From NCBI GenBank assembly GCA_037974665.1, contig CM075770.1, forward strand, positions 7,142,501 through 7,206,500: a stretch of 64,000 nucleotides of DNA. The letters are read 5' to 3'. The notes under the pieces are model-generated. The model saw nothing but the letters and a program-made list of their open reading frames with translations, was not told where the DNA came from and did not search any database. Below, in pieces: positions 18,380 to 44,564 of this stretch. The translations under genes were made by a program, and so were the position numbers. Source of the stretch: Ehretia macrophylla. Lineage: Eukaryota > Streptophyta > Magnoliopsida > Boraginales > Ehretiaceae. The number at the start of each line of letters is the position of its first letter. Within the stretch, counting starts at the first letter, position 1.

Positions 18380-18399
18380 AATAATTTTGTCCCAAAATT

Positions 18400-18560: not shown

Positions 18561-18599
18561 TTCTTCATAAGACAAGTTCTCTCGAAGCTGCAACGGCTC

Positions 18600-21479: not shown

Positions 21480-21840
21480 GATGCTTTGCCAACCAGTCCA
21501 TCCCTAAGATGACTTCATAGTCTCGAAAGGGTAACACTATAAGATTGGCTGAGAATTCCCTATCCTTAATTTGGATTTTACATGCTTTACAAGCTGAGCT
21601 AGTAACAAGTTTAGAACCCATCGGAGTACCAACTTCTACTTCGTAAGGAAAACATTCAACTCGTAATTTCACACGTTGCACACATAAGGGAGTAATAAAG
21701 GAATGAGTAGCACCTAGATCAATTAAGACCCTAATAGGTTGATTCAGTATCAAGAATGTACCTTCAACAACAGCAGTCTCCTCAGGAAGCTCCTCGCACT
21801 TAATGGCATAAGCTCGGGCCTGAACTCTAGGAACTGGAGT
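21480..21840 (-). pseudogene. gypsy aspartic protease remnant
   Basis: [18 protein letters not shown] followed by [18 protein letters not shown] near 21660-21780, and [18 protein letters not shown] near 21480-21530, match the retropepsin domain of chromoviral Pol. Confidence 0.8.
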
Positions 21841-21894
21841 TTTGCCTCTACCAACTGGTTTATTTTGATTTTGTCCTCCTTGCCATTTAGGGCA

Positions 21895-22880
21895 ATCCTT
21901 GATATGATGATGATCACTGCCATACTGCACGCATCGTCTTGACTTCTTCTAGCATTGGGCCTCGGTGTGACCCTTCTTGTCACAGTAAGAACAGTTGATA
22001 TACTGAGTAGCAGGTGAACTACTTGTGGATCCACGGGTGGAAGAGGCTAATGGTGCTTTAGACGGGCCACAGTTATTGACTGGTCTGTTCTGGCTCTGGC
22101 CCTAACTGCGACTCTGAGTCTGGAATTTTCTCTGTTGCCTTTGAGGCTGGTAAGGTTTCTTGTTCGGTTGACTTGAATCGGCTCTATCAAGTTTTCTTTT
22201 CTCAACTCGGGAAGCAGTAGCAAGAAGAGCAAAAAGTCATGTGAAGCCAACTGACCTGAATTTCTGGCCTCAATCCAGGGGTACTGACCATGTATTGAGC
22301 ATAACGGGACAGTTTGTCAAAACGAGCCTTATACTGAGCCACCGTCATGTTACCCTGGTTCAACTGCATGAATTCTTCAATTCGCCTCTGCCTGGAAACT
22401 ACAGTTACATATTTCTCCTTGAATTCCTTAAAGAAATTACTCCACAAGTGAGGTGTATGATCAGTTTCCCAAAGTGCCTCCACAGTATGCCACCAATGCT
22501 CAGCATCCCCGTGCAACAGAAACACAGTGAACTCGATCTTTTCTTCATCAGTATAGTCAAGTGTCCTGAAAATCCTTTCAATCTCAGACAGCCAAGCCTC
22601 TGCCTTTTCATCATTAGCTTCCCCGAAGAATTTGGACGGGTGAAAATCAAGGAACTCTCGCATTCTGCTATTTCTCCCATTGTTACCCCCATTCCTGTTG
22701 TTGTTATTGTTGTGGGTTGCTTCACGTGCATCTTGACATTCCATTACTCGCGACACGTGATCCATAGCGTTCGCCATCATGTTAAACATGGCCATGTCAG
22801 GATTAGTTTGATGGGCATCTCCGGCTTCTTGGGGCACATCGCTCCTATTGGTATTGCGGGTACTAGGGCCAACCATCTAT
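21895..22880 (-). pseudogene. gypsy gag remnant
   Basis: Starts MVGPSTRNTNRSDVPQEAG at about 22876 on the minus strand. It continues through an asparagine-rich stretch (ATHNNNNNRNGGNNGR), MREFLDFHPSKFFGEANDEK, EHWWHTVEALWETDHTP and NQGNMTVAQYKARFDKLSRY. Zinc-knuckle sequence (CSYCDKKGH-type) lies near 21895-22000. Broken. Confidence 0.85.
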
Positions 22881-23130
22881 AGGCACATATTATTATGCAT
22901 AATTTATTGGAATACGACAAGACAAGAATTTAATGTATAGAGTATGCAACATACAATTTCAGGTAGGCATAAAATTTTCAAACAACGAAGGCATATTAAT
23001 CACATAAGCACATAGAAACAAAGATGGCACAATTAGCATTGTCACGCATTAACACACATAAACAAGTCATCCTAATAACCTTAGGGCTTCTACCTATGGT
23101 CCGAGAGTTAAACCTAACTTAAGCAATCTA

Positions 23131-23143
23131 AGCTCTGATACCA
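23131..23143 (-). other. primer-binding site, initiator tRNA-Met
   Basis: TGGTATCAGAGCT on the minus strand, 11 bases from the 5' LTR edge at 23155. Same site and similar spacing as in the element at 1-7294. Confidence 0.9.
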
Positions 23144-23154
23144 TTAATATAAGG

Positions 23155-26100: not shown

Positions 26101-26906
26101 GAGTTTCTTAGAGTCCTTGAGTGCCTAGGAGAACCTTAGAAGATGAGCTAGAGCTATGTAGCTTAAGGATGCAGCCTTGGCCAAGAGATAGAGAGAAAAT
26201 GAGAGAATGAAAGCTTGAGAGAAAGAAATAGAATGTTGGTGTATGTGGTCGGCCTTGAGCTACTAAAAATCTGACCTTGTGCTATCTTTGAACATTATTT
26301 GAATTGTTTGGCATGCTTTGGTGATGTGGCCGAGACAAGCATGCTTGGTGATGGCTTTGGTTTCATTTTTTATGCATTGTGTTAAGTGTCTATGTCATAG
26401 CTTGTCTAGGGATGTTTTTAATTTATGCAATTCTTGTCAAATGCATGTTATGGTCAGCCAAAGCATTGTTCAATTCTGAATTTTTGTCATGTTTTGAGCT
26501 TTATTTTATTGTAGGTGCATGGGTTTTGCAAAAGAATAAAGAATAAAGAATAAAGAATGTCTAATGTTTAGCGTTTCGTCTTTTAGTGCATTGACTTAGG
26601 ATTAGAATATTAGTCAATGGAGTTTATAGGATTATTTAATAGTCTAGTACTTCGTGTAAGATGCTTTCTTGATTAGTGTGCGGGCACGCTTACCTAGGTC
26701 TAGGGTACGGAGTACTAGGTAAGGCACGAACTACGAGACGAATGCACGTATTCCAAATAAATGTACGAAATCCTAAAAGAATGCACATAATTCAATGCAA
26801 AGCATGTAAATCAGGACACGACTCTTAAACCTAGGTCAAGGCACACAATTCTAGGTTAAGGCACACGAAATGAGGTATCGCACGTAAATCGAGGTCGGAC
26901 CTCACA
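23155..26906 (-). repeat. 5' LTR of the element (3.75 kb)
   Basis: Runs from TGTCACGTCCCC to CGGACCTCACA. Slightly longer than its partner, partly because an AAAGAAT-type microsatellite near 26533-26560 has an extra repeat. Divergence from the 3' LTR looks highest at the U5 edge and lowest in the U3 half. Confidence 0.93.
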
Positions 26907-27242
26907 TCCGTCTCTCCGATGCCCATAACTTTTGATTTGTAAGGAGTTATGCGGTGCACCGCATACAGTTGGAAATCTCTCTGGGAGCTCTATGATGGGG
27001 GCAACATGCCTGCTCAGCTACGCCTATTTTTGGAGCCCAAAATCGAACGTTCTCATCAGTTTTGGGCTACTTTAATTCTTTTTGTGCTGTTGTTTCATCC
27101 CAAATCGTTCGTCGTGAGCTGCAAAAAGGACAACAACATAACTCGTGGGACATTAGAGCGCCCTACAACGCGTCGATATCATGTCTTGCGAGGATGCTAC
27201 GTTGTTGAAGCAGATTGGTTGTCGATAGGCCTTTCAAATGTA
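26907..27242 (+). repeat. 5S rDNA spacer block between two insertions
   Basis: Starts with TCCGT, the right copy of the target duplication, and continues the interrupted spacer (CTCCGATGCCCATAACTTTTG). It runs through the conserved middle of the 5S spacer to CCTTTCAAATG and TACCGTC. There is no 5S gene in it. It ends at the composite insertion starting at 27248. Confidence 0.9.
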
Positions 27243-27247
27243 CCGTC

Positions 27248-27478
27248 TGTGATACACCCAGGCTAAGCGAATACCCTGGCCTTAACGGTCCAGCGGCAGA
27301 GGCACACCCGCGATGCACACTATGCACAAATTGTCCTCTTTGGTACCCCACTGGGCCCTCAAGGTTTTGTTTCTCCCACAGTCTCCCATGAGAAAAGCGC
27401 TATGCACGAATACACGAGTTGCCTCTATATATTCAGGAGTACCACTTCCTAGACTTCCGATGTGGGATAGTTTACACA
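27248..27478 (-). repeat. TRIM-like LTR, copy 1 (231 bp)
   Basis: TGTGATACACCC to GATAGTTTACACA, nearly identical to 27554-27784. On the minus strand it contains CCCACATCGG and TATATAGAGG, a common promoter-like arrangement of small plant LTRs. As the 3' LTR of a minus-strand unit it is followed on its inner side by a purine-rich tract (minus strand, 27481-27498). Confidence 0.75.
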
Positions 27479-27553
27479 TATCCACCCCCCCTTGGAGGAC
27501 CCCGCGTCCTCACGGGTCAACGGGTCAACGGAAGACAGGCTCTGATACCACTT
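27479..27553 (-). mobile_element. 75-bp internal region of a TRIM-like element
   Basis: On the minus strand it starts with the primer site TGGTATCAGAGCC (27538-27550), three bases inside the copy-2 LTR. It ends in a purine-rich tract (CCTCCAAGGGGGGGTGGA) next to copy 1. A tRNA-Met primer site and a polypurine tract flanked by short direct LTRs are the hallmarks of terminal-repeat retrotransposons in miniature. There is no coding capacity, so it would need another element's enzymes. Confidence 0.72.
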
Positions 27554-27784
27554 TGTGATACACCCAAGCTAAGCGAATACCCTGGCCTTAACGGTCCAGC
27601 GGCAGAGGCACACCCGCGATGCACACTATGCACAAATTGTCCTCTTTGGTACCCCACTGGGCCCTCAAGGTTTTGTTTCTCCCACAGTCTCCCGTGAGAA
27701 AAGCGCTATGCACGAATACACGAGTTGCCTCTATATATTCAGGAGTACCACTTCCTAGACTTCCGATGTGGGATAGTTTACACA
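27554..27784 (-). repeat. TRIM-like LTR, copy 2 (231 bp)
   Basis: Differs from copy 1 at only a few bases (for example CCCAAGC against CCCAGGC), so the pair is young or recently duplicated. Both copies are followed by TATC on the right. Confidence 0.75.
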
Positions 27785-27949
27785 TATCAAATGCGTCGTC
27801 AAGGGCAAGGGCACATTGGCCACCAATACCCAAGCCGATATTGTCCGCTCTGCACAGGGAATCCACTATGGGCCCACACACTCACTCACGGTTTTGTTCC
27901 AACGCCAGCTAAGCGAATACCCTTAGGGGTAGAGGCACACTGCACGTGG
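27785..27949. repeat. flank with a partial third TRIM-like LTR start
   Basis: Unassigned sequence up to about 27904, then CTAAGCGAATACCC and GTAGAGGCACAC, which match the first 60 bases of the two LTRs in diverged form. It merges into the gypsy LTR remnant. Confidence 0.5.
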
Positions 27950-28682
27950 GACGCATCGTACCTCAGCGAGAAAGGGTCGTAGGATCAGGATACATCCGGA
28001 GTATCCCAACTTGTTGGTGTTTGGGGTTTACCGGCACATGCGTGAAGTTCATGGCTCGTGTCTCGTGATTGAAGACTTGAAGTGGAACCGTATTCTTTTT
28101 AATGTGGTTAACTACTTGCTATTTAATCTTGTTGTTATATTATATATATGATTTCTTGTATCTGCATATCACAATGCACGCCTGGTATGTTGCATCACCT
28201 CCCTCACTGAGTAACTTGGTTACTCATTCCTCTTTTCAACATATTTAAGGAAAAGCTGAAGATTGGATTGCCTCCTGTGTGACCCACTTGCTCTATCAGT
28301 GTGTAAAACATGAAAGAATGTGATAATGATATGCTTGTATTGTATTTGAGACTTTGTGCCCATGTATGTATTTATTTTATATCAAGGATTGTAATATTAA
28401 AGTTTTAGTTTTGTTTGATGATTAGATACTAGTGGTTCGTAATAACTTCAATTGTTTACTTTTCTGTTTAGTTGACTTGCACGCTGATAGGGATAAAACA
28501 AATAGAAGCTGTGGATTATAGTCTTATGGATGTATATTGTAGTTTACAGGTTTCTAGATAGTCCTATAAATAGGGAAAATTCCATCTGTTTTTTCCTAAA
28601 TTTCGTGCCCAGGGTTTGGATTTGGGTTGAGAATAGCGTGATAAATAGGAGTCCTGATCTCGTGAGGGATTGGGGCGTTACA
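27950..28682 (+). repeat. gypsy LTR remnant, 3' half, plus orientation
   Basis: GGGTCGTAGGATCAGGATAC near 27966-27985 matches a block shared by the other gypsy LTRs here. The sequence then runs to a U5-type end (GGATTGGGGCGTTACA) against 5S spacer. It belongs to a different subfamily from the 3.7-kb LTRs, and its U3 half is absent or replaced by the TRIM-like unit. Confidence 0.7.
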
Positions 28683-28745
28683 CTGTCTCTCTGGGCTGGG
28701 ACTTTGAATCGTCAACACATAAGGGCTTTGCTCCCTCAATATGAT

Positions 28746-28864
28746 GGGTGCGATCATACCAGCACTAATACCCCGGATCCCATTAGAACTTTGAAGCTAA
28801 ACGTGCTTGGGCGAGAATAGTACTAGGATGGGTGACACCCTAGGAAGTCCTCGTGTTTTACCCC
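28746..28864 (+). rRNA. 5S rRNA gene copy 12 (type II)
   Basis: First copy after the composite insertion. Type II throughout, with GAAGCTAAACG in the A-box and 3' end GTGTTTTACCCC. Confidence 0.88.
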
Positions 28865-29424
28865 CGTTTAATTTCTTTTTTGCACCGTTTAGCCTTGCCA
28901 AGATGCTTTATCCATCACATTTCTATTATCGAGTCCCATGGCATCTTGGGCAAGATAACTTTGCTTCACGAAGAGGCTGGGCCCAAAAACCGAAGGCGTG
29001 GGGCTTACGACCTGGTGTCCGTCGCTCTGGTGCCCATACTTTTGATTCGTAAGGAGTTATGCAGTGCACAGCATACCATTGGAAAGATTTCTAGGAGCTC
29101 TACGACGGTGGTAGCAAGTCTGCTCAGCTGTGCCTGTTTTCAGAGCCCAAAATTGAATTGTTTCATCATTTTCGGTCTACTTTTCTTATTTTTGCGCTTT
29201 TTTTTCATCCCGGATCGTTCATCGTGAGATGCAAAAAGGACGACAACCTAACTTGCGGGATATTACAGGGTCCTACAATACGACAATATCATGTCTTGCG
29301 AGGATACTGCGTTGTTGAAGTAGATGGGTTTTCGATAAGCCTATTGGGCCTTTCGAATGGGTCATCTCTCTGTGCTAGGACTGTGAATCATCAACACATA
29401 AGGGCTTTGCGCCCTCAACATGAC

Positions 29425-29542
29425 GGGCGCGATCATACCAGCACTAATGCCCAAATCCCATCAGAACTCCAAAGTTAACCGTACTTGGAAGAGAGTAGTA
29501 CTAGGATGGGTGACCCCTTGGGAAGTCCTCATGTTGCACCCC
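29425..29542 (+). rRNA. 5S rRNA gene copy 13 (type I)
   Basis: One base shorter (ATGCCCAAATCCC). The A-box is altered to AACCGTACTTGGAAGAG. Confidence 0.87.
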
Positions 29543-30100
29543 CTTCTATTTTTTTTGCCCCGTTTTGCCTTGCCAAGATGCTCTATCCATCACATTTCTA
29601 TTACAGAGTCCCACGGCATCTTGGGCAAGACAACTTCACTTCGCGGAGAGACTGGCCCTACAAACCGAGGGCTTGGGGCTTGTGACCTGGTGTCCGTCGC
29701 TCTGATGCCCATAACTTTTGATCTGTAAGGACTTATGCGACGCAAATCATACCGTTGGATAGTTCTCCATGAGCTCTACGATGGGGGCAGCATGCCTGCT
29801 CTGCTGCGCCTATTTTCAGAGCCTAAAATTGAACGTTTTCATCAGTTTTGGGCCACTTTAATTCTTTTTGCATTGTTGTTTCGTCCAGGATCGTTAGTCG
29901 TGAGCCGCGAAAAGGACGACAACCTAAGTCACGGGATATTATAGCGCCCTACATAGTGTCGATATCACGTCTTGCGAGGATGCTACATTGTTGAAGCAGA
30001 TGGGTTGTCGATAAGCCCATTGGGCCTTTCGAATAGGTCGTCTCTTTGGGCTGGGACTATGAACCGTCAACACAAAAGGGTTTTGCGCCCACAACATGAC

Positions 30101-30219
30101 GGGTGTGATCATAACAGCACTAATGCCCCGGATCCCATCAAAACTCCGAAGCTCAGCGTGCTTGGGCGAGAGTAGTACTAGGATGGGTGATACCCTGGGA
30201 AGTCCTCTTGTTCCACCCC
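30101..30219 (+). rRNA. 5S rRNA gene copy 14 (type II)
   Basis: Good type II sequence (GCTCAGCGTGCTTGGGCGAG, GATACCCTGGGAAG). It keeps the consensus CTGGGAAGTCCTC of the 3' arm. Confidence 0.9.
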
Positions 30220-30777
30220 CGATTAATTTTTTTTTTCCCCGTTTAGACTTGCCAAGATGTTTAATCCCTCATATTTCTATTCTCGAGCCCCACGGCATCT
30301 TGGGCATGACAACTTCTCTTCACAGAGAGGCTGGGCTTGCAAATCGAGGGCGTGTGGCTTGTGACCTAGTGTCTGTCGCTCTGATGACCATAACTTTTGA
30401 TCCGTAAGGAGTTATGTGGCGTACAGCATACCGTTGGAAAGTTCGTCGGGAGCTCTATGATGGGGGCAACAAGCCTCCTCAGCTGCACCTATGTTCAGAG
30501 CCCAAAATTGAACATTTTCATCAATTTTCGTCCACTTTTCTTCTTTTTGTGCTTTTTTTCATCCCAGATCGTTCGTCGTGAGTCGCGAAAAGGATGACAA
30601 CCTAACTCACAGAATATTAGAGAGCCCTACATTGCGTCGATATCACGTCTTGCAAGAATATTGCGTTGTTGAAGCAGATGGGTTGTGGATAGGCCCATTG
30701 GGCCTTTCGAATGGTCGTTTCTCTGGGCTAGGATTGTGAACTGTCCACATAAAAGTGCTTTGCGCCATCAACATGAT

Positions 30778-30896
30778 GGGTGCAATCATACCAACACTAA
30801 TCCACCAGATTCCATCAGAACTCCGAAGTTAACCGTGCTTGGGTGAGAGTAGTACTAGGATGGGTGGCCCCTTGGGAAGTCCTCATGTTGCACCCC
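30778..30896 (+). rRNA. 5S rRNA gene copy 15 (type I)
   Basis: Type I with GGGTGGCCCC in the C-box. It is the first of two I-II-III runs (30778-32082 and 32765-33827). Confidence 0.89.
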
Positions 30897-31456
30897 CTTT
30901 TAGTTTTTTTTTGCCCCGTTTAGCCTTGTCAAGATGCATTATCCATCATATTTCTATTATCGAGTTGCATGGCTTCTTGGGCAAGACGACATTGCTTCGC
31001 AGAGAGGCTGGGCTCACAAACCGAGGGCCTGGGCCTTGTGACCTGGTGTCCGTCGCTCCGATGCCCATAACTTTAGATCCGTAAGGAGTTATGCGACGCA
31101 CAACATATTGTTGGAAAGTTCTCTGGTAGCTCTACGATGGGGGCAACATGCCTACTCGGCTGCGCCTATTTTCAGACCCCAAAAGCGAACGTTCTCATCA
31201 GTTTTGGGCCACTTTTCTTCTTTTTGCGTTGTTTTTTCGTCCCGGATCCTTCGTCATGAGCCGGGAAAAGGACAAAAACCTAACTCGCTGGACATTAGAG
31301 TGCCTTATATCACGTCGATATCACGTATTGGGAGGATACTACGTTACTAAAGCAGATGGGTTGTCGATAAGCCCATTGGGCCTTTTGAATGGGTCGTCTC
31401 TCTGGGCTGGGATTGTGAATAGCTAACACATAAGGGCTTTGCACCCTCAACATGAT

Positions 31457-31575
31457 GGGTGCAATTATACCAGTACTAATGCCCCGGATCCTATCAGAAC
31501 TCCGAAGCTAAGCGTGCTTGGGCGAGAGTAGTACTAGGATGGGTGATACCCTGGGAAGTCCTGGTATTCCACCCC
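31457..31575 (+). rRNA. 5S rRNA gene copy 16 (type II)
   Basis: Consensus-like from GCCCCGGATCC through GTAGTACTAGGATGGGTGA. The 5' end is changed to GCAATTATACC and the 3' end to CTGGTATTCC. The spacer after it is about 55 bases short. Confidence 0.9.
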
Positions 31576-32081
31576 CGTTTAATTTTTTTTTTTGCCTCGT
31601 TTAGCCTTGCCAAGATGCTTTATCCTTCACATTTCTATTATCGAGTCCTACGGCATCTTGGGCAAGACAACTACACTTCACGGAGAGGCTGAGCCTACAA
31701 ACCGAGGTTGTGGGGCTTGTGACATTGTGTCGGTCACTTCGATGCCCATAACTTTTGATCCGTAAGGAGTTTTGCGGTGCATACCATACCGTTGGAATAC
31801 TCTTTGGGATCTCTACGATTGGGGCCGCAAGCTTGATCGGATGCACCTATTTTCGAAGACCAAAATTGAACATTTTCAATAATTTATGTCTACTTTTCTT
31901 CTTTTTGTGCTTTTTTTTCATCACGGATCGTTCATTGTGAACTGTGAAAAGGACGATAACCTGACTCGCTGGATATTAGAGGGTCCTACAATATGTCGAT
32001 ATCACGTCATGCGAGGATGCAGTGTTGTTGAAGCAGACAGTGAACCGTCAACACATATGGGCTATGCCCTATCAACATGAC

Positions 32082-32200
32082 GGGTGCGATCATACTAGCA
32101 CTAATGCACCAGATTCCATCAGAACTCCGAAGTTAAGCTTGCTTGGGCGAGAGTAGTACTAGTATGGGTGACCCCCTCGGAAGTCCTTGTGTTGCACCCC
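32082..32200 (+). rRNA. 5S rRNA gene copy 17 (type III)
   Basis: GAAGTTAAGC A-box start and GACCCCCTCGGAAG. The following TTTTTATAT is the mark of type III units, although the 3' end is GTTGCACC rather than GTTACACC. Confidence 0.9.
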
Positions 32201-32764
32201 CTTTTTATATTTTTTTTTCGCCCCGTTTAGCCTTGCCAAGATGCTTTATCCATCATATTTCTATTTTCGAGTCCCACGGCATCTTGGACAAGACAACTTC
32301 ACTTCACGGCGAGGCTGGGCCTACAAACCTAAAGCGTGGGGCTTCTGACCTAGTGTCTGTCGCTCCGGTGCCTATAACTTTTGATCCGTAAGGAGTTATG
32401 GGGCCCACAGCATACCGTTAGAAAGCTCTTCGGGAGCTCTACGATGGAGGCAACAAGCATGCTCTGCTGTGCCTATTTTCAGAGCCAAAAATCAAACATT
32501 TTCATCAGTTTCTGTCCATTTTTCTTCTTTTTGAGCTTTTTTTTTCATCCCGCATCGTTCGTCGTGAGCCGCGAAAAGGACAACAACCTAAATCATAGGA
32601 TATTAAAGGGCCTTACATCGCGTCAATATCACGTCTTGTGAGGATGCTGCGTTGTTGAAGCAGATGGGTTGTAGATAGGCCCATTAGGCCATTCGAATGG
32701 GTCGTCTCTCTGGGCTGGGATTGTGAACTGTCGACACAAAAGGGCTTTGTGCCATCAACAAGAC

Positions 32765-32883
32765 GGGTGTGATCATACCAGCACTAATACACCGGATTGC
32801 ATCAGAACTCCGAAGTCAATCGTGCTTGCGCGAGAGTAGTACTATGATGGGTGACCCCTTGGGAAATCCTTATGTTGCACCCC
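32765..32883 (+). rRNA. 5S rRNA gene copy 18 (type I)
   Basis: Type I with private changes (GAAGTCAATCG, GCTTGCGCGAG, CCTTATGTTGC). Its spacer is cut at 33180, where a second copy has been fused in. Confidence 0.87.
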
Positions 32884-33180
32884 TTTTTAGTTTTTTTTGC
32901 CCCGTTTAGCCTTGCCAAGATGTTTTATCCATCATATTTCTATTATCGAGTCCCACGACATCTTGGGCAAGACGACATCACTTCGCAGAGAGTCTAGGCT
33001 CATAAACCGAGGGCTTGGGGCTCGTGACCTGGTGTCCGTCGCTCCGATGCCTATAGCTTTTGATCCGTAAGGAGTTATGCGGCGCACAGCATACTGTTGG
33101 AAAGTTCTTTGGGAGCTCTATGATGGGGACAGCATGCCTGCTTGACTGCGCCTTTTTTCGGAGCCAAAAATTGAACGTTC

Positions 33181-33264
33181 TCATCAGAACTCCGAAGCTA
33201 AGCGTGCTTGGGCAAGAGTAGTACTAAGATGGGTGATACCCTGGGAAGTGCTCGTGTTCCACCC
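33181..33264 (+). pseudogene. 5S rRNA gene copy 19 (type II, 3' part only)
   Basis: Spacer sequence GAACGTTCTCATCAG runs straight into 5S sequence CATCAGAACTCCGAAG. CATCAG occurs in both the spacer and the gene, so a deletion between these six bases removed the rest of the spacer and the first third of the gene. A- and C-box regions remain but the 5' end does not. Confidence 0.9.
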
Positions 33265-33826
33265 TCGTTTAATTTTTTTTTTGCCCTGTTTAGACTTGCC
33301 AAGATGCTTTATCCTTCACATTTCTATTATCGAGTCCCACGGCATCTTGGGCAAGACAACTTCGTTTCGCGGAATGGCTGGGCCCTTAAAATGAGGGCAT
33401 GGGGCTTGTGACCTGGTGTCCGTCGTTCCGATCCCCATAAATTTTGATCCATAAGGAGTTATGTGGTGCACAACATACCATTAGAAAGCTCTCTGGGAGC
33501 TCTACGATGGGGGTAGCAATTCTGCTCGGCTGCGCCTGTTTTCAGTGCCCAAAATTGAACATTTTCATCAGTTTATGTCCACTTTTCTTCTTTTTGCGCT
33601 GTTTTTTCCTCCCGGGTCGGTCATCGTTAGCCGTGAAAAGGACGACAACCAAACTCGCGGGATAGTAGAGGGTCCTACAATGCGTTGATATCATGTCATG
33701 CGAGGATGCTGCGTTGTTGCAGCATATGGGTTTTCGATAAGCCCATTGGGCCTTTCGAAGGGGTCGTCTCTCTGGGCTGGGACTGTGAACCACCAACACA
33801 TATGGGCTTTGCGCTATCAACATGAC

Positions 33827-33945
33827 GGGTGCGATCATACCAGCACTAATATACCAGATTCCATTAGAACTCTGAAGTTAAGCGTGCTTGGGCGAGAGTA
33901 GTAGTAAGGTGGGTGACCCCCCCGGAAGTCATCGTGTTACACCCC
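33827..33945 (+). rRNA. 5S rRNA gene copy 20 (type III)
   Basis: Consensus A-box (AAGTTAAGCGTGCTTGGGC). Changed intermediate element and C-box (GTAGTAAGGTGGGTGACCCC). 3' end GTGTTACACC and TTTTTATAT after the gene. Confidence 0.9.
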
Positions 33946-34507
33946 CTTTTTATATATTTTTTTTGGCCCTGTTTAGCCTTGCCAATATGCTTTGTCCATC
34001 ATATTTCTATTTTCGAGTGCCACGACATCTTGGGCAAGATAACTTCGTTTAGCAGAGAGGTTGGACCTACAAACCGAGGGCGTGGGGCTTGTGACCTGGT
34101 GTCCGTCACTCCGGTGCACATAACTTTCGATCCGTAAGGAGTTATACGGCACACAACATACCGTTAGAAAGCTCTCCAAGAGCTCTACGATAGAGGCAGC
34201 AAGCCTACTCGGCTGCACCTATTTTCGTAGCCAAAAATCAAACGTTTTCATCAATTTTGGTCCACTTTTCTTATTTTTGTGCTTTTTTTGTCCCGGATCG
34301 TTTGTTGTGAGTCGCGAAACGGACGACAACCTAACTCACTAGATATTAGAGGGCCCTACAACGAGTCGATATCATGTCTTGCAAGGATGCTACATTGTTG
34401 AAGCAGATGGGTTGTCAATAAGCCCATTGGGCCTTTCGGATAGGCTGTTTCTCTGTGCTGGGACTGTGAACTGTCAACACATAAGGGCTTTGCGCCATCA
34501 ACATAAC

Positions 34508-34626
34508 GGGTGCGATCATACCAGCACTGATGCACCGGATTCCATCAGAACTCCGAAGTTAACCGTGCTTCGGCGAGGGTAGTACTAGGATGGGTGTCCC
34601 CTTGGGAAGTCCTCGTGTTGCACCCC
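34508..34626 (+). rRNA. 5S rRNA gene copy 21 (type I-like)
   Basis: Type I A-box with CTTCGGCGAGGG, GGGTGTCCCC in the C-box, and 3' end CGTGTTGCACC as in type IV. It follows a type III copy, the position held by type IV in the later blocks, but lacks the type IV marks. Confidence 0.88.
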
Positions 34627-35187
34627 GTTTTAATATTTTTTTTGCCCGGTTTAGCTTTGCCAAGATCCTGTATCCATCACAATTCTTTTTTCGAGTCCCA
34701 CAACATCTTATACAAGACAACTTCGCTTCGCAGAGAGGATGGGCCCGCAAGCCGAGGGCTTGGGGCTTTTGACCTGGTGTCCATCGCTCTGATGCCCATA
34801 ACTATTGATCCGTAAGGTGTTCTGCGGCGCACAGTATACTGTTGGAAAACTCTCTTGGAGCTCTACAATGGGGGCATAATGCCTGCTCGGTTGCGCTTGT
34901 TTTTGGATCCCAAAATCAAATGTTTTCATCAATTTTGGGCCACTTTAATTGTTTTTGCGTTGTTATTTCATCCTGAATTGTTTGTCGTGAGCCGTGAAAA
35001 GGATGACAACCTAACTTGCGAGACATTAGAGCACCCTACAGCATGTCGATATCACGTCTTGCGGGGATGCTGCGTTGTTAAAGTAGATGGGTGGTAGATA
35101 AGCCCATGTGGCCTTTCGAATAGGCCATCTCTCTGGGCTGCGACTGTGAACCATCAACATATAAGGGCTTTGCGCTATCAACATGAC

Positions 35188-35306
35188 GGGTGCGATCATA
35201 CTAGCACTAATGCCCCGGATCCCATTAGAACTCTGAAACTAAGCGTGCTTGGGCAAGAGTAGTACTAGGATAGGTGACACCCTAGGAAGTCCTCGTGTTC
35301 CACCCC
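35188..35306 (+). rRNA. 5S rRNA gene copy 22 (type II)
   Basis: Type II with GAAACTAAGCG and GGATAGGTGACACCC. It lies outside the regular four-unit order, just before it begins. Confidence 0.89.
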
Positions 35307-35865
35307 CGTTTAATTCTTTTTTTGCCCCGTTTAGCCTTGCCATGATGCCTTATCCATCACATTTCTATTATTGAGTCCCACAGCATCTTGGGCAAGATAA
35401 CTTCACTTCGCGGAGAGGTTGGGCCCGTAAACCAAGGGCATGGGGCTTATGATCTAGTGTCCATCGCTCCGGTGCCCATTACTTTTGATCCATAAGGAGT
35501 TATGCGGCGCAAAGAATACCGTTGGAATGATCTCCGGGAGCTCTACGATGGAGGCAGTAAGCCTGCTCGGCTGTGTCTATTTTCGGAGCCCAAAATTGAA
35601 TGTTTTCATCAGTTTTGGTCCACTTTTCTTCTTTTTGAGCTTTTTTTCATCCCAAATCGTTCGTTGTTAGCTACAAAAAGGACGACAACCGAATTCATGG
35701 ATATTCGAGGGTCCTACAATGTGTAAAAATCATGTCTTGCACGGATGCTGCGTTGTTGAAGTAGATGGGTTATTGATAAACCCATTGGGCCTTTCTAATG
35801 GGCCGTCTCTCTGGACTGGGACTGTGAACCATCAACACATAAGGGCTTTGCGCCATCAACATGAC

Positions 35866-35985
35866 GCGTGCGATCATACCAGCTCTAATGCACCGGATTT
35901 CATTCAGAACTCCAAAGTTAACCGTGCTTGGGCGAGAATAGCACTAGGATAGGTGACCCTTTGGGAAGTCCTCGTGTTGCACCCC
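35866..35985 (+). rRNA. 5S rRNA gene copy 23 (type IV)
   Basis: 120 bases. Carries AGCTCTAATGC, the extra base in ATTCAGAAC, and TAGCACTAGG, all shared with 38335 and 40828. Starts GCGTGCG. Confidence 0.9.
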
Positions 35986-36535
35986 CTATTAATTTTTTTT
36001 TTGCCCCATTTAGCCGTGCCAAGATGCTTTATCCATCCCATTTCTATTATCGAGTCCCACGACATCTTAGGCAAGACAATTTTGCTTCACGGAGAGGATG
36101 GGCTCGCAAACCGAGGGCCTGGGGCATGTGACCTGTTGTCCGTCGCTCTGATGCCCATAACTTTTGAACAGTAAGGAGTTATTTGGTGCACATCATACCG
36201 CTGGAAACCTCTACAATGGACGCAGCATGCCTGCTCGGCTGCGCCTATTTTTGGATCCCAAAATCGAACGTTTTCATCAATTTTGGGACACTTGAATTCT
36301 TTTTGCGCTGTTGTTTCATCCCATATCGTTTGTCGTGAGCCACGAAAGGGACAAAAACCTAACTCACGGGACATTAAAGTGCCCTACAATGCGTTGATAT
36401 CACGTCTTGCGAGGATGTTGCGTTATTGAAGCATATGGGTTGTCGATAAGCCCATTGGGCCTTTCAAATGGGCCGTCTCTCTGGGATGGGACTGTGAACC
36501 GTCAACACATGAGGGCTTTGCGCCATCAACATGAC

Positions 36536-36654
36536 GAGTGCGATCATACCAGCACTAATGCACCGGATTCCTTCAGAACTCCGAAGTTAACCGTGCTTGG
36601 GCGAGAGTAGTACTATGATGGGTGACCCATTAGGAAGTCCTCATGTTGCACCCC
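36536..36654 (+). rRNA. 5S rRNA gene copy 24 (type I, A of block 1)
   Basis: Starts GAGTGCG and has TACTATGATGG, both shared with the copy at 39003. Followed by the shortened spacer, so the next gene is only 465 bases away. Confidence 0.9.
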
Positions 36655-37000
36655 ATTTTAAATTTTTTTTTGGCTCGTTTAGCCTTGCCAAGATGATTTA
36701 TCCATCACATTTCTATTATCGAGTCCCACGGGATCTTGGGCAAGACGACATCGCTTTGCAAAGAGGCTGGGCTCACAAATTGAGGGCCTGGGGCTTGTGA
36801 CCTAGTGTCCGTCGCTCCGATGCCTATAACTTTTGATCTGTAAAGAGTTATGTAGCGCACAACATCATGTCTTGTGAGGATGCTACTTTGTTAAGGCATA
36901 TTGGTTGTCGATAAGCCCATTGGGCCTTTCGAAAGGGCCGTCTGTCTAGGCTATAACTGTGAACCGTCAACACATAAGGGCTTTGCGCCCTCAACATTAC

Positions 37001-37118
37001 GGGTGCAATTGTACTAGTACTAATTCCCCGGATCCATCAGAACTCCGACGCTAAGCGTGCTTGGGCGAAAGTAGTACTAGGATGGGTGATACCCTGGGAA
37101 GTCCACGTGTTCTACCCC
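37001..37118 (+). rRNA. 5S rRNA gene copy 25 (type II, B of block 1)
   Basis: Shares GCAATT, CTAG at the start and GTCCACGTGTT at the 3' end with the copy at 39468. One base shorter in GGATCCATC. Confidence 0.89.
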
Positions 37119-37679
37119 CATTTAATTTTTTTTTGCCCCCGTTTAGCCTTGCCAAGATGTTTTATCCTTCACATTTCTATTATCAGGTCCCACGGCATCT
37201 TAGGCAAGACAATTTCGCTTCGCAGAGAGGCTGGGCCAGTAAACCGAGGGCGTGGGGCTTGTGACCTGATGTCCGTCGTTCCGATGCCCATAACTTTTGA
37301 TCCGTAAGGAGTTATGTAGCGCACATCATACAGTTCGAAAGGTCTCCGGGAGCTCTACGATTGGGGCAGCAAGCCCGATCGGCTGTGCCTATTTTCGGAG
37401 CCCAAAAATGAACATTTTCATTAATTTTGGTCAACTTTTCTTATTTTTGTGCAGTTTTTTCATCCCGGATCGTACGATGTGAGCTACGAAAAGGAGGACA
37501 ACCTAACTCACGGGATATGAGAGGGTCCTACTGTGTGTCGATATCATGTCCAGTGAGGATGCTGCATTGTTGAAGCAAATGGGTAGCCGATAAGCCCATT
37601 GGGCTTTTTGAATGGGACGTCTCTCTGGGCTGGGACTGTGAACCGCCAACACATATGGGCTTTGCGTCATCAACATGAC

Positions 37680-37797
37680 GGGTGCAATCATACCAGCACT
37701 AATGCACCGGATTCCATTAGAACTCCGAAGTTAAGCGTGCTTGGGCGAGAGTAGTCCTAGGATGGGTGACCCCTGGGAAGTCCTCGTGTTACACCCC
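37680..37797 (+). rRNA. 5S rRNA gene copy 26 (type III, C of block 1)
   Basis: A-box is consensus (AAGTTAAGCGTGCTTGGGC). Close to the plant consensus except GTAGTCCTAGG and a one-base shorter C-box (GACCCCTGGG). Confidence 0.91.
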
Positions 37798-38334
37798 TTT
37801 TTATATTTTTTTGGCCCCGTTGAGCCTTGCCAAGATGCTTTATCCATCATATTTTTATTATCGAGTCCCATGGCATCTTGAGCAAGACAACTTCGCTTCG
37901 TGGAGAGGCTGGGCTAACAAACCGAGGGCATGGGGCTTGTGACCTGGTCTCTGTCTATCCGGTGACCATAACTTTTGATCAGTAAGGAGTTATGCGATGC
38001 ACAACATACCGTTGGAAAGCTCTCCGGGAGCTCTACAATGGAGGCAGTAAGCCTGCTCGGCTGTGCCTATTTTCGGGCTCCAAAAATTGAACATTTTCAT
38101 CAGTTTTGGTCTACTTTTCTTCTTTTTGAGCATTTTTTTCATCCCGAATCGTTCGTCATGAGTTGCAAAAAGGACGACAACCTAATTTGTCGTCAAAATC
38201 ACGTCTTTCGTGGATGCTGCATTGTTGAAGTGGATGGGTTATCGATAAACCCATTGGGCCTTTCTAATGGGTCGTCTCTTTGGACTGGGACTGTGAACCG
38301 TCAACACATAAGAGCTTTGCGCCATCAACATGAC

Positions 38335-38454
38335 GAGTGCGATCATACCAGCTCTAATGCACCAGATTCTATTCAGAACTCTGAAGTTAACCGTGCTTGG
38401 GTGAGAGTAGCACTAGGATGGGTTACCCCTTGGGAAGTCCTCGTGTTGCACCCC
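38335..38454 (+). rRNA. 5S rRNA gene copy 27 (type IV, D of block 1)
   Basis: AGCTCTAATGC, ATTCAGAAC and TAGCACTAGG identify type IV. Starts GAGTGCG. C-box changed to GGGTTACCCC. Confidence 0.9.
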
Positions 38455-39002
38455 CTATTAATTTTTTTTTGTCCCGTTTAGCCGTGCCAAGATGCTTTAT
38501 CCATCACATTTCTATTATCGAGTCCCACGGTATCTTGGGCAAGACAACTTCGTTTCACGGAGAGGATGGGCCTGCAAACCGAGGGTCCGGGCATGTGACC
38601 TGTTGTCCGTCACTCCAATACCCATAACTTTTGATCCATAAGGAGTTATTTGGCGCACATCATACCGTTGGAAACCTCTACGATGGGGGCAGCATGCCTG
38701 CTAGGCTGCGACTATTTTTGGATCCCAAAATTGAACGTTTTTATCAATTTTGGGACACTTGAATTCTTTTTGAGATGTTGTTTCATCCCGGATCGTTTGT
38801 CATGAGCCACAAAAAGGATGAAAACCTAACTCGCGGGACATTAGAGCGCCCTACAACTCGTTGATATCACATTTTGCGATGATGCTGCATTGTTGAAGCA
38901 TATGGGTTGTCGATAAGCCCATTAGGCATTTCGAATGGGTCGTCTCTCTGGGCTGGGACTGTGAACCATCAACACATAAGGGCTTTATGCCATCAACATG
39001 AC

Positions 39003-39121
39003 GAGTGCAATCAGACCAGCACTAATGCACTGGATTCCATCAGAACTCCAAAGTTAACCGTGCTTCGGTGAGAGTAGTACTATGATGGCTGACCCAATGG
39101 GAAGTCCTCATGTTGCACCCC
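39003..39121 (+). rRNA. 5S rRNA gene copy 28 (type I, A of block 2)
   Basis: GAGTGC start and TACTATGATGG pair it with 36536. Further changes are GGCTGACCCAATGGG and CTTCGGTGAG. Again followed by the shortened 465-base interval. Confidence 0.89.
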
Positions 39122-39467
39122 CTTTAAAAATTTTTTTTGGCTCGTTTAGCCTTGCCAAGATGATTTATCCATCACATTTCTATTATCGAGTCCCACGGGA
39201 TCTTGGGCAAGACGACATCGCTTCGCAGAGAGGCTGGGCTCACAAACTGAGGGCCTGGGGCTTGTGACCTGGTGTCCGTCGCTCCGATGCCTATAACTTT
39301 TGATCTGTAAAGAGTTATGTGGCGCATAGTATCATGTCTTGCGAAGATGCTACGTTGTTGAAGCAGATGGGTTGTCGATAAGCCCATTGGGCCTTTCGAA
39401 TGGGCTGTCGCTCTGGGCTGGGACTGTGAACCGTCAACACATAAGGGCTTTGCGCCCTCAACATTAT

Positions 39468-39586
39468 GAGTGCAATTATACTAGCATTAATGCCCCGGAT
39501 CCCATCAGAACTCTGAAGCTAAGCGTGCTTGGGCGAGAGTAGTACTAGGATGGGTAATCCCCTGAGAAGTCCACGTGTTCCACCCC
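39468..39586 (+). rRNA. 5S rRNA gene copy 29 (type II, B of block 2)
   Basis: GTCCACGTGTT and GCAATTATACTAG pair it with 37001. C-box reads GGGTAATCCCC. Confidence 0.9.
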
Positions 39587-40116
39587 CGTTTAATTTTTTT
39601 TTTGCCCCGTTTAGCCTTGCCAAGATGTTTTATCCTTCACATTTCTATTATCGAATCCCACGGCATCTTGGGCAAGACAACTTCCATTCGCGAAGAGGTT
39701 GGGCCCGCAAACCGAGGGCGTGGCTTGTGACCTCGTGTCCGTCGCTCCGATGCCTATAATTTTTGATCCGTAAGGAGTTATGCGGTGCACAGCATACCAT
39801 TGGAAATCTCTCCAGGAGCTCTACAATAGGGGCAGCAAGCTTGCTCGGCTGCGCCTATCTTCGGAGCCCAAAATTGAACATTTTCATTAATTTTGGTCAA
39901 CTTTTCTTCTTTTTGTGCATTTTTTTCATCTCAGATTGTTCATTGTGTGCTGTGAAAAGGACGACAACCTAACTCGCGGGATATTAGAGGGTCCTACAAT
40001 GCTTCGATATCACGTCTTGCGAGGATGCTGCATTGTTGAAGCATATGGGTTTTCGATAAGTGCATTGGGCCTTTCGAATGGGTCGTCTCTCTAGGCTCTG
40101 ACTGTGAACCGTCAAC

Positions 40117-40145
40117 ACATATGGGCTTTGCCCCATTAGCATGAC
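40117..40145 (+). promoter_or_regulatory. 5S upstream element (-29 to -1)
   Basis: Plant 5S genes commonly use an AT-rich element near -28 and a C at -1. Here ACATATGG lies at -29 to -22 and the gene is preceded by GAC. The corresponding sequence in most other units is ACATAAGG, at the same distance. Confidence 0.5.
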
Positions 40146-40264
40146 GGGTGCGATCATACCAGCACTAATGCACCGGATTCCATTAGAACTCCGAAGTTAA
40201 GCGTGCTAAGGCAAGAGTAGTACTAGGATGGGTGACCTCCTGGGAAGTCCTCGTGTTACACCCC
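40146..40264 (+). rRNA. 5S rRNA gene copy 30 (type III, C of block 2), best-kept C-box
   Basis: The only copy with the plant consensus GGATGGGTGACCTCCTGGG, covering the C-box, together with a nearly normal 5' half (GCACCGGATTCCATTAGAAC). The A-box start AAGCGTGCT is kept but the following bases are AAGGCAAGAG instead of TGGGCGAGAG. If any copy here is transcribed this is a candidate, yet that change makes it doubtful. Confidence 0.92.
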
Positions 40265-40265
40265 C

Positions 40266-40285
40266 TTTTTATATATATATTTTTG
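40266..40285 (+). terminator. Pol III-type T tract after 5S copy 30
   Basis: A T5 run directly follows the CCCCC end of the gene and a second T run follows an AT repeat about 10 bases later. T runs terminate RNA polymerase III. Most copies in the array keep a run of 4 to 11 T within about 20 bases of the gene. Confidence 0.6.
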
Positions 40286-40827
40286 GCCCCGTTTAGCCTT
40301 GCCAAGATGCTTTATCCATCACATTTTTATTATCGAGCCCCACGGCATCTTGGGCAAGACAACTTTGCTTCGCGGAGAGGCTGGGCCTACAAACTGAGGG
40401 CGTGGGGCTTATGACTTAGTATCCGTCGCTCCGGTGCCTATTACTTTTGATTCGTAAGGAGTTATGCTGTGGACAGCATACTGTTGGAAAGCTCTCCGGG
40501 ACCTCTACGATGGGGGCAGTAAGCCTGCTCGGCTGTGCCGGGTTTCGGAGCGCAAAATTTAACATTTTCATCAGTTTCTGTCGACTTTTCTTCTTTTTGA
40601 GCTTTTTTTTCATCCCAGATCATTTGTCGTCAGCTGCGAAAAGGATGACAACCTAATTCACGGGATATTCGAGGGTCCTACAACGAGTCAAAATCATGTC
40701 TTGTGCAGATGCTGCGTGTTGAAGTAGATTGGTTATCGATAAACCCATTAGGCCTTCTAATGGTTCGTGTCTCTAGATTGGGACTGTGAACCATCAACAC
40801 GTAAAGGCTTTGCGCCATCAACATGAC

Positions 40828-40947
40828 GGGTGCGATCATACCAGCTCTAATGGACTGGATTCCATTCAGAACTCCGAAGTTAACCGTGCTTGGGCGAGAG
40901 TAGCACTAGGATGGGTGACCCCTTGGGAAGTCCTCGTGTTGCACCTC
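40828..40947 (+). rRNA. 5S rRNA gene copy 31 (type IV, D of block 2)
   Basis: Type IV marks present (AGCTCTAATGG, ATTCAGAAC, TAGCACTAGG). 3' end GCACCTC followed by a T run of more than ten. Confidence 0.9.
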
Positions 40948-41494
40948 TTTTTTTTTTTTTTGCCACGTTTAGCCGTGGCGAGATGCTTTATCCATCACAT
41001 TTCTATTATCGAGTCCCACGGCATCTTGGGCAAGACAACTTCGCTTCACGGAGAGGATGGGCTCGTAAACCTAGGGCCTGGGGCATGTGACCTGTTGTTC
41101 GTCGCTCCGATGCCCATAACTTTTGATCCATAATGAGTTATTTGGCGCACATCATACCATTAGAAACCTCTACGGTGGGGGCAGCATGCCAGCTCGGCTG
41201 CGCCTATTTTTGGATCCCAAAATCGAACATTTTCATCCGTTTTGGTCCACTTTAATTCTTTTTGAGTTGTTATTTCATCCCATATCATTTGTCGTGAGCC
41301 GTGGAAAGGACAAAAACCTAACTCGCAGGACATTAGAGCGCCCTACAATACTATGATATCACATCTTGCATGGATGCTGCGTTGTTGAAGCATATGGGTT
41401 ATCGATAAGCCCATTGGGCCTTCCGAATAGGCCGTCTCTCTGGGTTAGGACTGTGAACTGTCAACATATAAGGGCTTTGCACCATCAACATGAC

Positions 41495-41610
41495 GGGTGC
41501 AATCATACAAGCACTAATGCATCGGATTCCATCAGAACTCCGAAGTTAACCGTGCTTGGGCGAGAGTAGTACTAGGATGGGTGACCCTTTGGGAAGTCAT
41601 CATGTTGCAC
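41495..41610 (+). pseudogene. 5S rRNA gene copy 32 (type I), interrupted at its 3' end
   Basis: Clean type I sequence until CATGTTGCAC, where a gypsy LTR begins (TGTGAGGCCC). The last few bases of the gene and the T tract are absent. It marks the right end of the array in this window. Confidence 0.92.
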
Positions 41611-44564
41611 TGTGAGGCCCAACCTCGATTTGCGTGCGATACCTCGTTTCATGTGCCCTAGCTTAGATTTGCGTGCTTTGACCTAGGTTTAAGAGTCGTG
41701 TCTCGTTTTATGTGCCTTGCATAGAATTACATGCATTCATTTAGGGTTGCGTGCATTTGCTTGGGAAACGTGCATTTCTCTCGTAGTTCGTGCCTTACCT
41801 TGTAGTGTGTGCCCTAAACCTAGAAAAGCATGCCCGCACACTACTCAAGAAAACATCTTACACGAATTACTAGATCATTAATTAATCCTACAAACTCCAC
41901 TAACTAATATTAAAATGCTAATTCAACTCACTAGAAGACGAAATTGCACCAAAAGCTAAGCATTCTTTATTCTTTATTCCTTATTCTTTTGCACATCCTA
42001 AACACACAATATTATATTGCTCAACCAAGACAAAAATTGAGAATCTTGCACAAGCTTGGCTGACCACATGGAGCATTTGAACAAGCATTGCAATTTCAAA
42101 ATTATACCTAGACATTCTATGACAAGCTCATGACACAAAGCATAAAAAAAAAAAAAATGACTCAAAACTCTACCCAAAGCTCCACCATCTCGGCCCACTC
42201 AATCACCCATGCTAGAAAATTCAAACATGCTCTTGAAGACACAAAAATCAGAATTTTACAAGCTCAAGGCCGACCAAATGCTCAAGCCTTTCATTTTATT
42301 CTCTCATTCTCTCTTTCTCTCATTCACTCTCTCATTTCCTCTTTCTTTCTCTCGGCCTTAGCTGCAATTCAACACTCCATAGCTAAAGCTCATCATCCTA
42401 TGATTCATCAAGGCATTCAAGCCACTAAGGAACTCGACCAAGCAAGCTAGAAGCCAAGAAGCATGAATGCAAGCTCATAGCACATTCATTCGGGCCTTAG
42501 GTATGTTGATAGCTTCTCTTTCATTTTCTTTTTGTTCTAGCCACTTGCACATACTAAGAACATGGTTACTAAGCTAGGAATTAGAGAATCTCAAGTTGTC
42601 TCTCGGCTAAGCAAGAAGAAAAGTCGATCTTGTGCTTCATCAAGAGTTTTGTGCATCATCATTGTTGTCTTGCTAAGGTGAGGGCTAAAACTCTCTTGAA
42701 AAGCTTTCAAAAACAACATACATGCCTTTAAATGTCTATTTTTACCTCTGTACTTGTGATATATGTGTGTACATGAGCTTTTGTAAACATGCATGGCAAG
42801 ATATTTGGCTAGATTGTGAAGATAGGTGAAATCGCATAAATGGACAGTCTTCTGACTTGTTGGACCGAAGTGAATTTGACCAGGTAAATGATATTGAAAA
42901 TGCGTGAAATTTGGTAGGTGACCAGTTTTGCCAGTTCGGAGCATTTTTCAAAGAAATAGGCCAAAGCCAATTTGGACCCTAAAGTCTCCAAAATGGAAAA
43001 ACATCAAAAGGGGGCCAAATCTGAAAAATCTGGGAAGATGATGCAGGTTTTGGCAGATTCACTGTCCTTGTAGAACGAACCAGTTTTGACTTAGTAAATG
43101 ATGTCCAAAATTCATACCATTTGGTATGTTACTAGGTTTTTCCGTTCTGGACATTTTTGTCAGAAATAGACTAAGGCTAAATCGGATCCTAAAGTCCTCA
43201 AAAATGACAAGTATTGAATTGTATGCAAATCTGGACAATTTTGCGTAGTCTCATGGTTTTGGCTATAACTCTTGAACCCGAACTCCAAATGATGCGAGGT
43301 TTGTTTCTGGATTTAGTTGACTCCTTAAGATTTAATTTGAAATTTTGTTCACTTGAATTGGAGATTTTTTGCATGTCTCAATGATTGTGAGAAAACATAC
43401 CATCGCAGTGAGGTTTTCATCTAGTGATATGCTTTTTCTATTATTGAAACTTCTCTTGTTGTATTAAATGCTTGGGATTGTGGCACTTGGATGTTTTGTG
43501 GACTGTTTTGAATGCTTGAGGGTGTTTTAATTAATCGATGCATGGCTTGAGTTTAATTACGTGACAACTTGGGGTTTAATCGCACGGGTGAGCATGAATT
43601 GAAACCCTAATGACTAGGAAAACTCACTAAGTGTTGATCCTATGGATATTGTGTTTAATTATGTGATTAGTAGGCTGCCCGTAGTTTCCTTTATAGCCCT
43701 AAATGTGATTCCGATGATTACATATTGACAAGTAGACCTTTCTTGCACCCGGTACTAGGTAAACGTCGTTGCATGTTGTATGACCTTATTATTTGATTAC
43801 GTGAACTTTGAAATGAGTTATATGACTTAATTTACATGTGTTACATGGCTGCCCATTTAATATTCATATTACTCTCTGTGCTTTATGAGTGAAATTACGT
43901 GTCATCTCGTGCCTCGCGTGTTTACTTGTCAATGTGCAATCTTATGACTGCTCGGAGGCAGTCTACTTTGTTGTCCTGTTAATGTGATATAGTAAATGTC
44001 GTAAATGTGCATTGCATACAAGGTTGCAACCTTTCATTCTGGCGTGGTAGCGTTCACATACACCGGGCGGCATCGGGCTTGTCGGTGCAACCTTGACTAC
44101 CATTGTCCAATTCCCTCTCTCGCTTGGGGGCTAGACTTCCTCGGAGAGTTGGGTCGTAGGATTTTTGGATACATCTGGAGAACACCCATTTGGCATGATA
44201 AGTGGATGATTTGAAGTCGGCTGCAACAACTGATACTGGAAATGAACTGAGAGCAAAAGCTCACCGTATCCTTTTCACTATCTGTATAAGTACTCTCGCT
44301 TGGTTCCTAGAGGACCTCGGGGAGGAAAGACGGGTAATTGTGTTCTTTTACTCTTATATTATATTATGAACTTACTTATGATATATGTCATGCTTGCAAT
44401 AAGGGTTTTCATAAGTTGAACCGAAAAAAGAGTTTCAAAACTTATTTCTCGTTCCCCCTCGCTGAGTTCATAAGGACTCACCCTCTTTTATCATCTCAGG
44501 TGAAGAAGACCAGGAACAGGTACCCGAGGACAACGTGCCTATTGATGACTCCTTGGAATGATTG
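41611..44564 (+). mobile_element. gypsy LTR, plus orientation, U5 end missing
   Basis: Starts TGTGAGGCCCAACCTCG, the reverse complement of the outer edge of the LTR ending at 26906. It stays collinear with that LTR family (pyrimidine-rich tract 42295-42355, shared block near 44030-44220, CTCACCCTCTTTTATCATC near 44477). At about 44564 it stops, roughly 640 bases before the expected end, and mitochondrial-like DNA begins. It is the left LTR of a lost plus-strand element or a broken solo LTR. No internal coding part remains. Confidence 0.88.

Follow-up and report, generated by a model that had tools for sequence, protein, structure and literature searches.

A four-unit higher-order repeat in a decayed 5S rDNA-type array of Ehretia macrophylla, within a family of 5S units that probably evolves as a satellite

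The genes for 5S ribosomal RNA, with their spacers (5S rDNA), are a textbook case of concerted evolution. The window analysed here, a stretch of 64,000 nucleotides of the Ehretia macrophylla genome (contig C7:7142501-7206500 of a 1.58-Gb assembly of 20 contigs, GCA_037974665.1), holds part of a 5S array of another kind. The Rfam model search gave 31 5S_rRNA matches in it, all on the forward strand and scoring 49-102 bits against a gathering score of 38, which fall in two groups, at 7365-14247 and 28746-41613; one further copy, the 32nd, is partial and sits at 33182-33264. The two groups make a single array once insertions of 12.2 kb and 1.44 kb are discounted. Its units are mostly 655-683 bases long; two have 465 bases and one 625, and two others are fused partial units. 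An initial annotation had seen in the right-hand part a four-unit higher-order repeat, and had set it against normal 5S genes that evolve in concert as near-identical monomers. The contrast holds, since the window units are no near-identical monomers, and the repeat itself is borne out by unit identities, by a tree and by shuffling of the unit order. The features involved are the following, in window positions (unit names are separate from contig names such as C1 or C7):

7296..41613, forward strand: degenerate 5S rDNA-type tandem array, window part; 31 Rfam matches and one partial copy, with two insertions inside
35533..41494, forward strand: four-unit higher-order repeat: second half of C, then D, A and B, then first half of C; period 2466-2493 bases, 2.4 periods in all; 0 of 2000 shuffles
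35188..35865, forward strand: unit C0, chimeric, first half of Y type, second half of C type
35508..35558, forward strand: left junction, where the tetramer begins within unit 35188; on its left, Y type in 10 of 11 diagnostic columns, on its right, C type in 9 of 9
35866..36535, forward strand: unit D0, with an inserted T and an 11-base gap as in D1 and D2
36536..37000, forward strand: unit A1, 465 bases, with a 222-column gap at 36862, as in A2
37001..37679, forward strand: unit B1 (weak, 82/19)
37680..38334, forward strand: unit C1
38335..39002, forward strand: unit D1
39003..39467, forward strand: unit A2, 465 bases, with the gap of A1, at 39329
39468..40145, forward strand: unit B2
40146..40827, forward strand: unit C2
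40828..41494, forward strand: unit D2
41495..41610, forward strand: last 5S copy, truncated by a long terminal repeat (LTR); it cannot be called an A unit

The ten starts on which the four-unit order had been built (35866, 36536, 37001, 37680, 38335, 39003, 39468, 40146, 40828 and 41495) all coincide with forward-strand Rfam 5S_rRNA matches, and equivalent copies are indeed 2466-2493 bases apart. Units one period apart are closer than neighbours, in a fixed order, as in a higher-order repeat: identity reaches 92.0% for A1-A2, 86.9% for B1-B2 and 87.0% for C1-C2, and, among D units, 89.7% for D0-D1, 89.1% for D0-D2 and 88.3% for D1-D2, against a mean of 82.5% for all pairs of window units. Neighbours do not group together: in the right-hand part of the array they average 82.7%, versus 84.8% for units four places apart (lag 4), lag 12 also giving 84.8% and lag 8 84.1%. 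The lag-4 run is made of six successive comparisons, from 35188 to 38335, standing 3.3 to 5.8 points over background; it was matched by none of 500 order shuffles in which all lags and run lengths were tried, and 2000 shuffles per coding gave no match either, whether the coding took in all sites, transversions alone, the spacer alone or spacer transversions alone. When the whole window array is averaged, lag 4 is again the best lag, at a borderline shuffle p of 0.054, because the tetramer fills the right end only. In a tree of 31 units, from which the stub at 41495 was excluded, A goes with A (100/97), and the D triple (100/95) takes in 35866, which had rightly been proposed as the preceding D unit. 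The C units group as a triple (35188, 37680, 40146; 93/95) and as a pair (87/86), and the expected B pair is present but weak, because unit 31457 is about equally near B2 as B1 is. An alignment-free comparison by shared 8-mers concurs for A, C1-C2 and D; for B, the best partner of 37001 is 39468, while 39468 is slightly closer to 31457 (0.37 versus 0.35).

Some details of the original description have to be amended. Four short sequences had been quoted as private marks of unit types. Within the window, AGCTCTAA is confined to the three D units and GTCCACGTGTT to the two B units, whereas TACTATGATGG is found additionally at 13524 and 32840, and GTTACACC at 33936; better marks are the 222-column gap common to both A units, and the inserted T with the 11-base gap common to all three D units. 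The copy at 41495, taken for a further A unit, is a 119-base stub truncated by the LTR at 41611, and cannot be assigned to any unit type because it lacks the A gene marks and is nearest to 30778 and 36536. The order also begins half a unit further left than had been noted, at about 35.53 kb, unit 35188 being C-like in its second half only; beyond it the signal ends abruptly, the next lag-4 comparison (34508 versus 37001) falling under background. This switch, within 35508-35558, would be a fossil crossover point, one exchange point having been preserved. It follows that the repeated block starts in mid-C, takes in D, A and B and stops half-way through the following C, and, as the second half of C and the whole of D are present three times, that at least two block duplications are needed. 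From what is established for tandem arrays, we infer that unequal crossing-over was at work.

Gene conversion between units four apart could be proposed instead of block duplication, and it would be in keeping with an excess of identity that is uneven along the units, A-A being closer than B-B or C-C. From the junction on, however, the lag-4 comparison is free of any deficit in 31 of 31 alignment windows (30 positive, 1 zero), over six successive comparisons and at constant spacing, which favours block duplication over patchy conversion. Moreover, gaps are held in common in different units of the block, no equally strong patches appear at other lags in the tetramer zone, and there is no reason for conversion to stay at lag 4. 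We therefore hold conversion to be very unlikely. A more trivial origin, a misassembled or duplicated read path, comes to mind because assemblies of tandem arrays are error-prone; yet equivalent units are 8-13% apart, well beyond the read error of a finished consensus. Furthermore, an A-unit query spanning the deletion junction found a full-length match at exactly two places, the two window copies, among the 40 matches scored, the other 38 stopping at query position 197-216. Such an artefact is scarcely credible, and the tetramer looks private to the contig C7 array, within the matches scored. No function is known for it; what it records is the way in which this array was re-duplicated.

The same array contains a second zone with an order of its own, as well as the insertions already mentioned:

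8045..14128, forward strand: two-unit higher-order zone, units two apart being alike in seven successive comparisons; 0 of 2000 shuffles
14667..26904, reverse strand: 12.2-kb Gypsy-type LTR retrotransposon inside the array; LTR pair 91.3% identical (BLAST), 5-base target duplication TCCAT/TCCGT
27244..28683, strand not assigned: second insertion, about 1.44 kb, possible solo LTR with ends TG...CA
41611..44564, forward strand: LTR of the same family as the 12.2-kb element, at the right end of the array

The two-unit comparisons run from 8045 to 12126. Two further orders were considered and set aside. A three-unit order at 30101-33147 (zone 30101-35187) is not robust, its shuffle p being 0.043-0.069 with all sites, 0.09-0.10 with the spacer, 0.29-0.51 with transversions and 0.61-0.78 with spacer transversions. 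An array-wide alternation of unit types x and Y is weak (neighbours are unlike in 8 of 10 and 13 of 20 cases; p 0.046 and 0.18, combined 0.030); the x and Y marks are nearly restricted to contig C7. The two fused partial units, at 32765-33826 and 14129-14668, both resemble products of short-homology exchange, the spacer being joined in the former to the 5S gene at a common CATCAG, in the latter to the T run downstream of the gene.

The tetramer copies differ by a Kimura two-parameter distance of 0.129, the LTR pair of the inserted element by 0.074, which suggests, if equal rates are assumed, that the block duplication is older than the insertion of the 12.2-kb element. This element has 3.7-kb LTRs, and LTRs of its family bound the array at 7294 and 41611, so that one LTR family contacts the contig C7 array three times. 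At 3967-7294, two pieces of that LTR family in opposite orientation join near 4375, forming a rearranged junction. Inside the 1.44-kb insertion, at 27248-27788, a 235-base stretch recurs 306 bases on at 99% identity and is much younger than its surroundings. Outside the array, 48189-58052 is a younger Gypsy-type element with 2.4-kb LTRs that are 97.7% identical.

The 5S copies of the window are far from what would be expected of working genes. With a plant 5S sequence as reference for gene differences, all 32 copies stand at 7-35 positions from it, and 31 of 31 at 6 or more under a different end-gap rule. Copy 37680 alone has zero differences in the three promoter boxes; judged on sequence, no window copy combines an intact gene with its internal promoter. 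Gene copies are about 85.5% identical pairwise, and whole units, with their mean of 82.5%, lack the near-identity of functional 5S rDNA. Changes from the unit majority cluster at CG and CHG sites, C-to-T changes in the spacer affecting 20.3% of the former and 12.6% of the latter, versus 6.5% at CHH, T-to-C reaching 2.1%. This excess fits the decay of methylated DNA. The array continues to the left of the window, with units in 5 of 5 stretches sampled over 50 kb, while 0 of 5 stretches sampled over 50 kb to the right on contig C7 had any; its right end therefore lies inside the window. The five left-hand stretches are as degenerate as the window (within-stretch identity 81-83%) and carry no good copy.

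The unit is in no way limited to this contig. Spacer searches of the assembly, of which the best 47 and 40 matches were scored (40-47 per search out of 10,135-274,483 loose candidates), place the approximately 680-base unit on at least 13 of the 20 contigs, 12 through spacer matches and contig C9 through fetched sequence; contigs C6 and C18, which had matches to the 5S only, are not in this count. Two of the assembly searches gave 28 loci, six of them inside the window, and the remaining 22 are without exception tandem arrays of this unit. Tandem arrays descended from 5S rDNA thus lie at many loci, as befits a satellite. Eight fetched loci with the top 5S scores (118.2-118.7 bits) all carry the spacer of the same unit, and among the fetched loci, these eight included, no 5S gene with a different spacer was found. 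Dispersal over many contigs might also evoke a retrotransposon. Cassandra-type terminal-repeat retrotransposons in miniature (TRIM) carry 5S sequence, and the unit could be such an element in tandem. None of the 22 loci outside the window is a single element, though, and no Cassandra-type primer-binding motif was seen by eye in the unit consensus (no dedicated test was run); this origin is most improbable.

A comparison of 201 units, 31 from the window and 170 from 15 stretches elsewhere (a single unit in one of them), shows that in most of these arrays the units group with others of their own array. Units of C4, C17a, C14 and contig C1 each occupy a single side of a branch, and C17b requires two changes; units of contigs C12 and C2 interleave, there is partial mixing of C8, C9 and C10, and the C7 stretches are intermixed. 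Across the 15 groups of at least five units, within-group identity ranges from 81.2% to 95.7%; the lower it is, the higher the median number of gene differences (Spearman -0.94) and the lower the CpG content (0.80). The youngest array seen, on contig C10 (L043, C10:17071500-17081499), is 95.7% identical within, with a CpG ratio of 0.97 and a median of 2 differences from the reference plant 5S, and is nearest to a working locus. On contigs C12 (L040, C12:67266000-67275999) and C2 (L044, C2:87970000-87979999), 11 successive units are 97.5-99.6% alike, in register, which points to an array block copied between chromosomes, or between mis-assigned contigs.

Multimers of other sizes are present in two of these arrays. 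That of contig C17b (L047, C17:78785000-78794999) has a six-unit order, five successive pairs being 89-93% alike versus about 83%; lag 6 has a mean of 91.1% as compared with 82.0-83.2% at other lags, a value reached in 0 of 1000 shuffles. That of contig C1 (L048, C1:4288000-4297999) has a two-unit order in which 648- and 678-base units alternate (p 0.004), seven units sharing 93-99% within a kind and about 85% across kinds. All 12 of its units are at least 9 positions from the reference plant 5S, so that units unlikely to work as genes would have been recently multiplied in pairs; amplification of non-functional units, as in a satellite, is what this array displays (function being judged from sequence alone). 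Four other groups show small effects or few pairs and give no ground for a claim: a tetramer in C7c (p 0.028), seen in two pairs at 90% and 88%, lag 3 in C9 and C17a (p 0.025 and 0.031), and lag 2 in C14 (p 0.002), where the rise is about one point.

An interpretation in terms of ordinary 5S rDNA must be weighed at this point. The window could be the old edge of a working array, where a chance four-unit duplication was kept at a neglected end: it does sit at an array end, it carries insertions, and its block is short, with 2.4 periods. Against this stand the five equally degenerate stretches over 50 kb leftwards, the presence of arrays of the unit on at least 13 contigs and the six- and two-unit orders of two other arrays, and we consider it unlikely, if by no means negligible. 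It is highly probable, rather, that the window is the right-hand end of an old, silenced and decaying array, within a genome-wide satellite derived from 5S rDNA that evolves by local unequal exchange. Several observations weigh against this view. The arrays were picked by high match score, not randomly, and in 9 of 15 groups, the whole window (0.054) included, the shuffle p is above 0.05. Tree support for the B pair is just 82/19. A working array with the same unit may exist, the contig C10 array, with its median of 2 differences, being the nearest to one. Finally, equivalent tetramer units are less divergent in the gene than in the spacer (40/479, 8.4%, versus 249/1981, 12.6%; p 0.009), which could reflect residual constraint; without CG and CHG sites the contrast fades (25/398, 6.3%, versus 131/1587, 8.3%; p 0.21).

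We may then picture the history of this family as follows. Arrays of the unit would have reached many chromosomal places, their present state being observed and the route conjectural, and each array homogenises or decays locally, as the grouping of units within most arrays shows. At the contig C7 array, whole-array homogenisation would have halted, and sister or homologous arrays that paired out of register would by unequal exchange have doubled blocks of already divergent neighbours, of two units in the left part and of four units at 35.5-41.5 kb. The copies would later have decayed, mainly by C-to-T changes at CG and CHG sites, while retrotransposons inserted. The initial reading as a satellite-type higher-order repeat is thus sustained, and the degenerate units, the spread over at least 13 contigs and the orders on contigs C17 and C1 make the analogy with satellites closer than had first been visible; its likeness to centromeric satellites stops short of a long homogeneous run, since the tetramer is short, old and local, extending over some 6 kb (2.4 periods), its copies are 8-13% apart and the A junction is found at 2 of the 40 matches scored.

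Comparison with known systems helps to locate the finding. In higher-order repeats of the alpha-satellite type, divergent monomers are repeated as a block, and equivalents are closer than neighbours. Such blocks usually keep a high homogeneity along long runs, whereas here 2.4 periods stand at 87-92%; the contig C1 dimers (93-99%) are nearer. Satellites derived from 5S rDNA, such as PcP190 in frogs, that of the fish Hoplias (reportedly named 5SHindIII) and that of the Plantago lagopus B chromosome, a plant case, share with the Ehretia units a tandem arrangement and satellite behaviour. They appear to differ in that the whole gene-plus-spacer unit of about 680 bases is kept here, on at least 13 contigs, and in the private two-, four- and six-unit orders.

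In the pike (Esox), 5S rDNA is amplified over many chromosomes, as in Ehretia, and heavily methylated, and its higher-order organisation has been examined (PMC5437419). The pike units are described there as largely intact, with no significant pseudogenisation, whereas those of Ehretia are decayed, and the passages on higher-order organisation distinguish types of block (continuous, interrupted, inverted and dispersed) and describe no multimers whose members bear marks of their own (PMC5437419). The old end of the maize 5S array, rich in transposable elements, has diverse units and insertions of such elements at one end, as here, but at one locus instead of many, and the passages on maize are silent on multimer order (PMC10335936). 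In the heterogeneous 5S region of wheat 5B, units likewise lie amid LTR retrotransposons, with more divergent genes; mean gene divergence is 2.8% there (PMC5688495), as against genes only some 85.5% identical pairwise in the window. The mosaic array of Landoltia punctata has distinct unit classes side by side, in an order that its authors call random (PMC8264772), while the order repeats here. Satellites derived from 5S rDNA and higher-order organisation of 5S units are each already known; the Ehretia case brings such features together, and has in addition multimer orders that differ from array to array. No plant case of locus-private 5S multimers was found in a literature search in which subscription papers were thinly covered, and one may well be in print.

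More interesting than the tetramer itself is what has become of the 5S family across this genome. A bolder proposition, which we put forward tentatively and short of calling it probable, is that in this plant lineage the family has largely turned satellite: most arrays would be pseudogenes that no longer serve ribosomes and yet are multiplied, the older ones each growing by a multimer of its own, of two, four or six units, and their graded ages would display the whole passage from gene array to satellite, with block transfer between chromosomes (C2/C12) as part of it. As a caution, counts of 5S genes and 5S sites seen by fluorescence in situ hybridization in such genomes need not mirror working genes. 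A genome whose arrays range in age from the near-canonical (C10) to the decayed (C7, C14, C17b), and in which multimer orders are confined to one array each, allows one to follow how homogenisation halts and how block-wise exchange takes over. Decay of methylated, amplified 5S arrays is one of the long-term scenarios discussed for the pike, in the passages cited above (PMC5437419); the Ehretia genome looks like a later stage of that scenario, and makes it testable.

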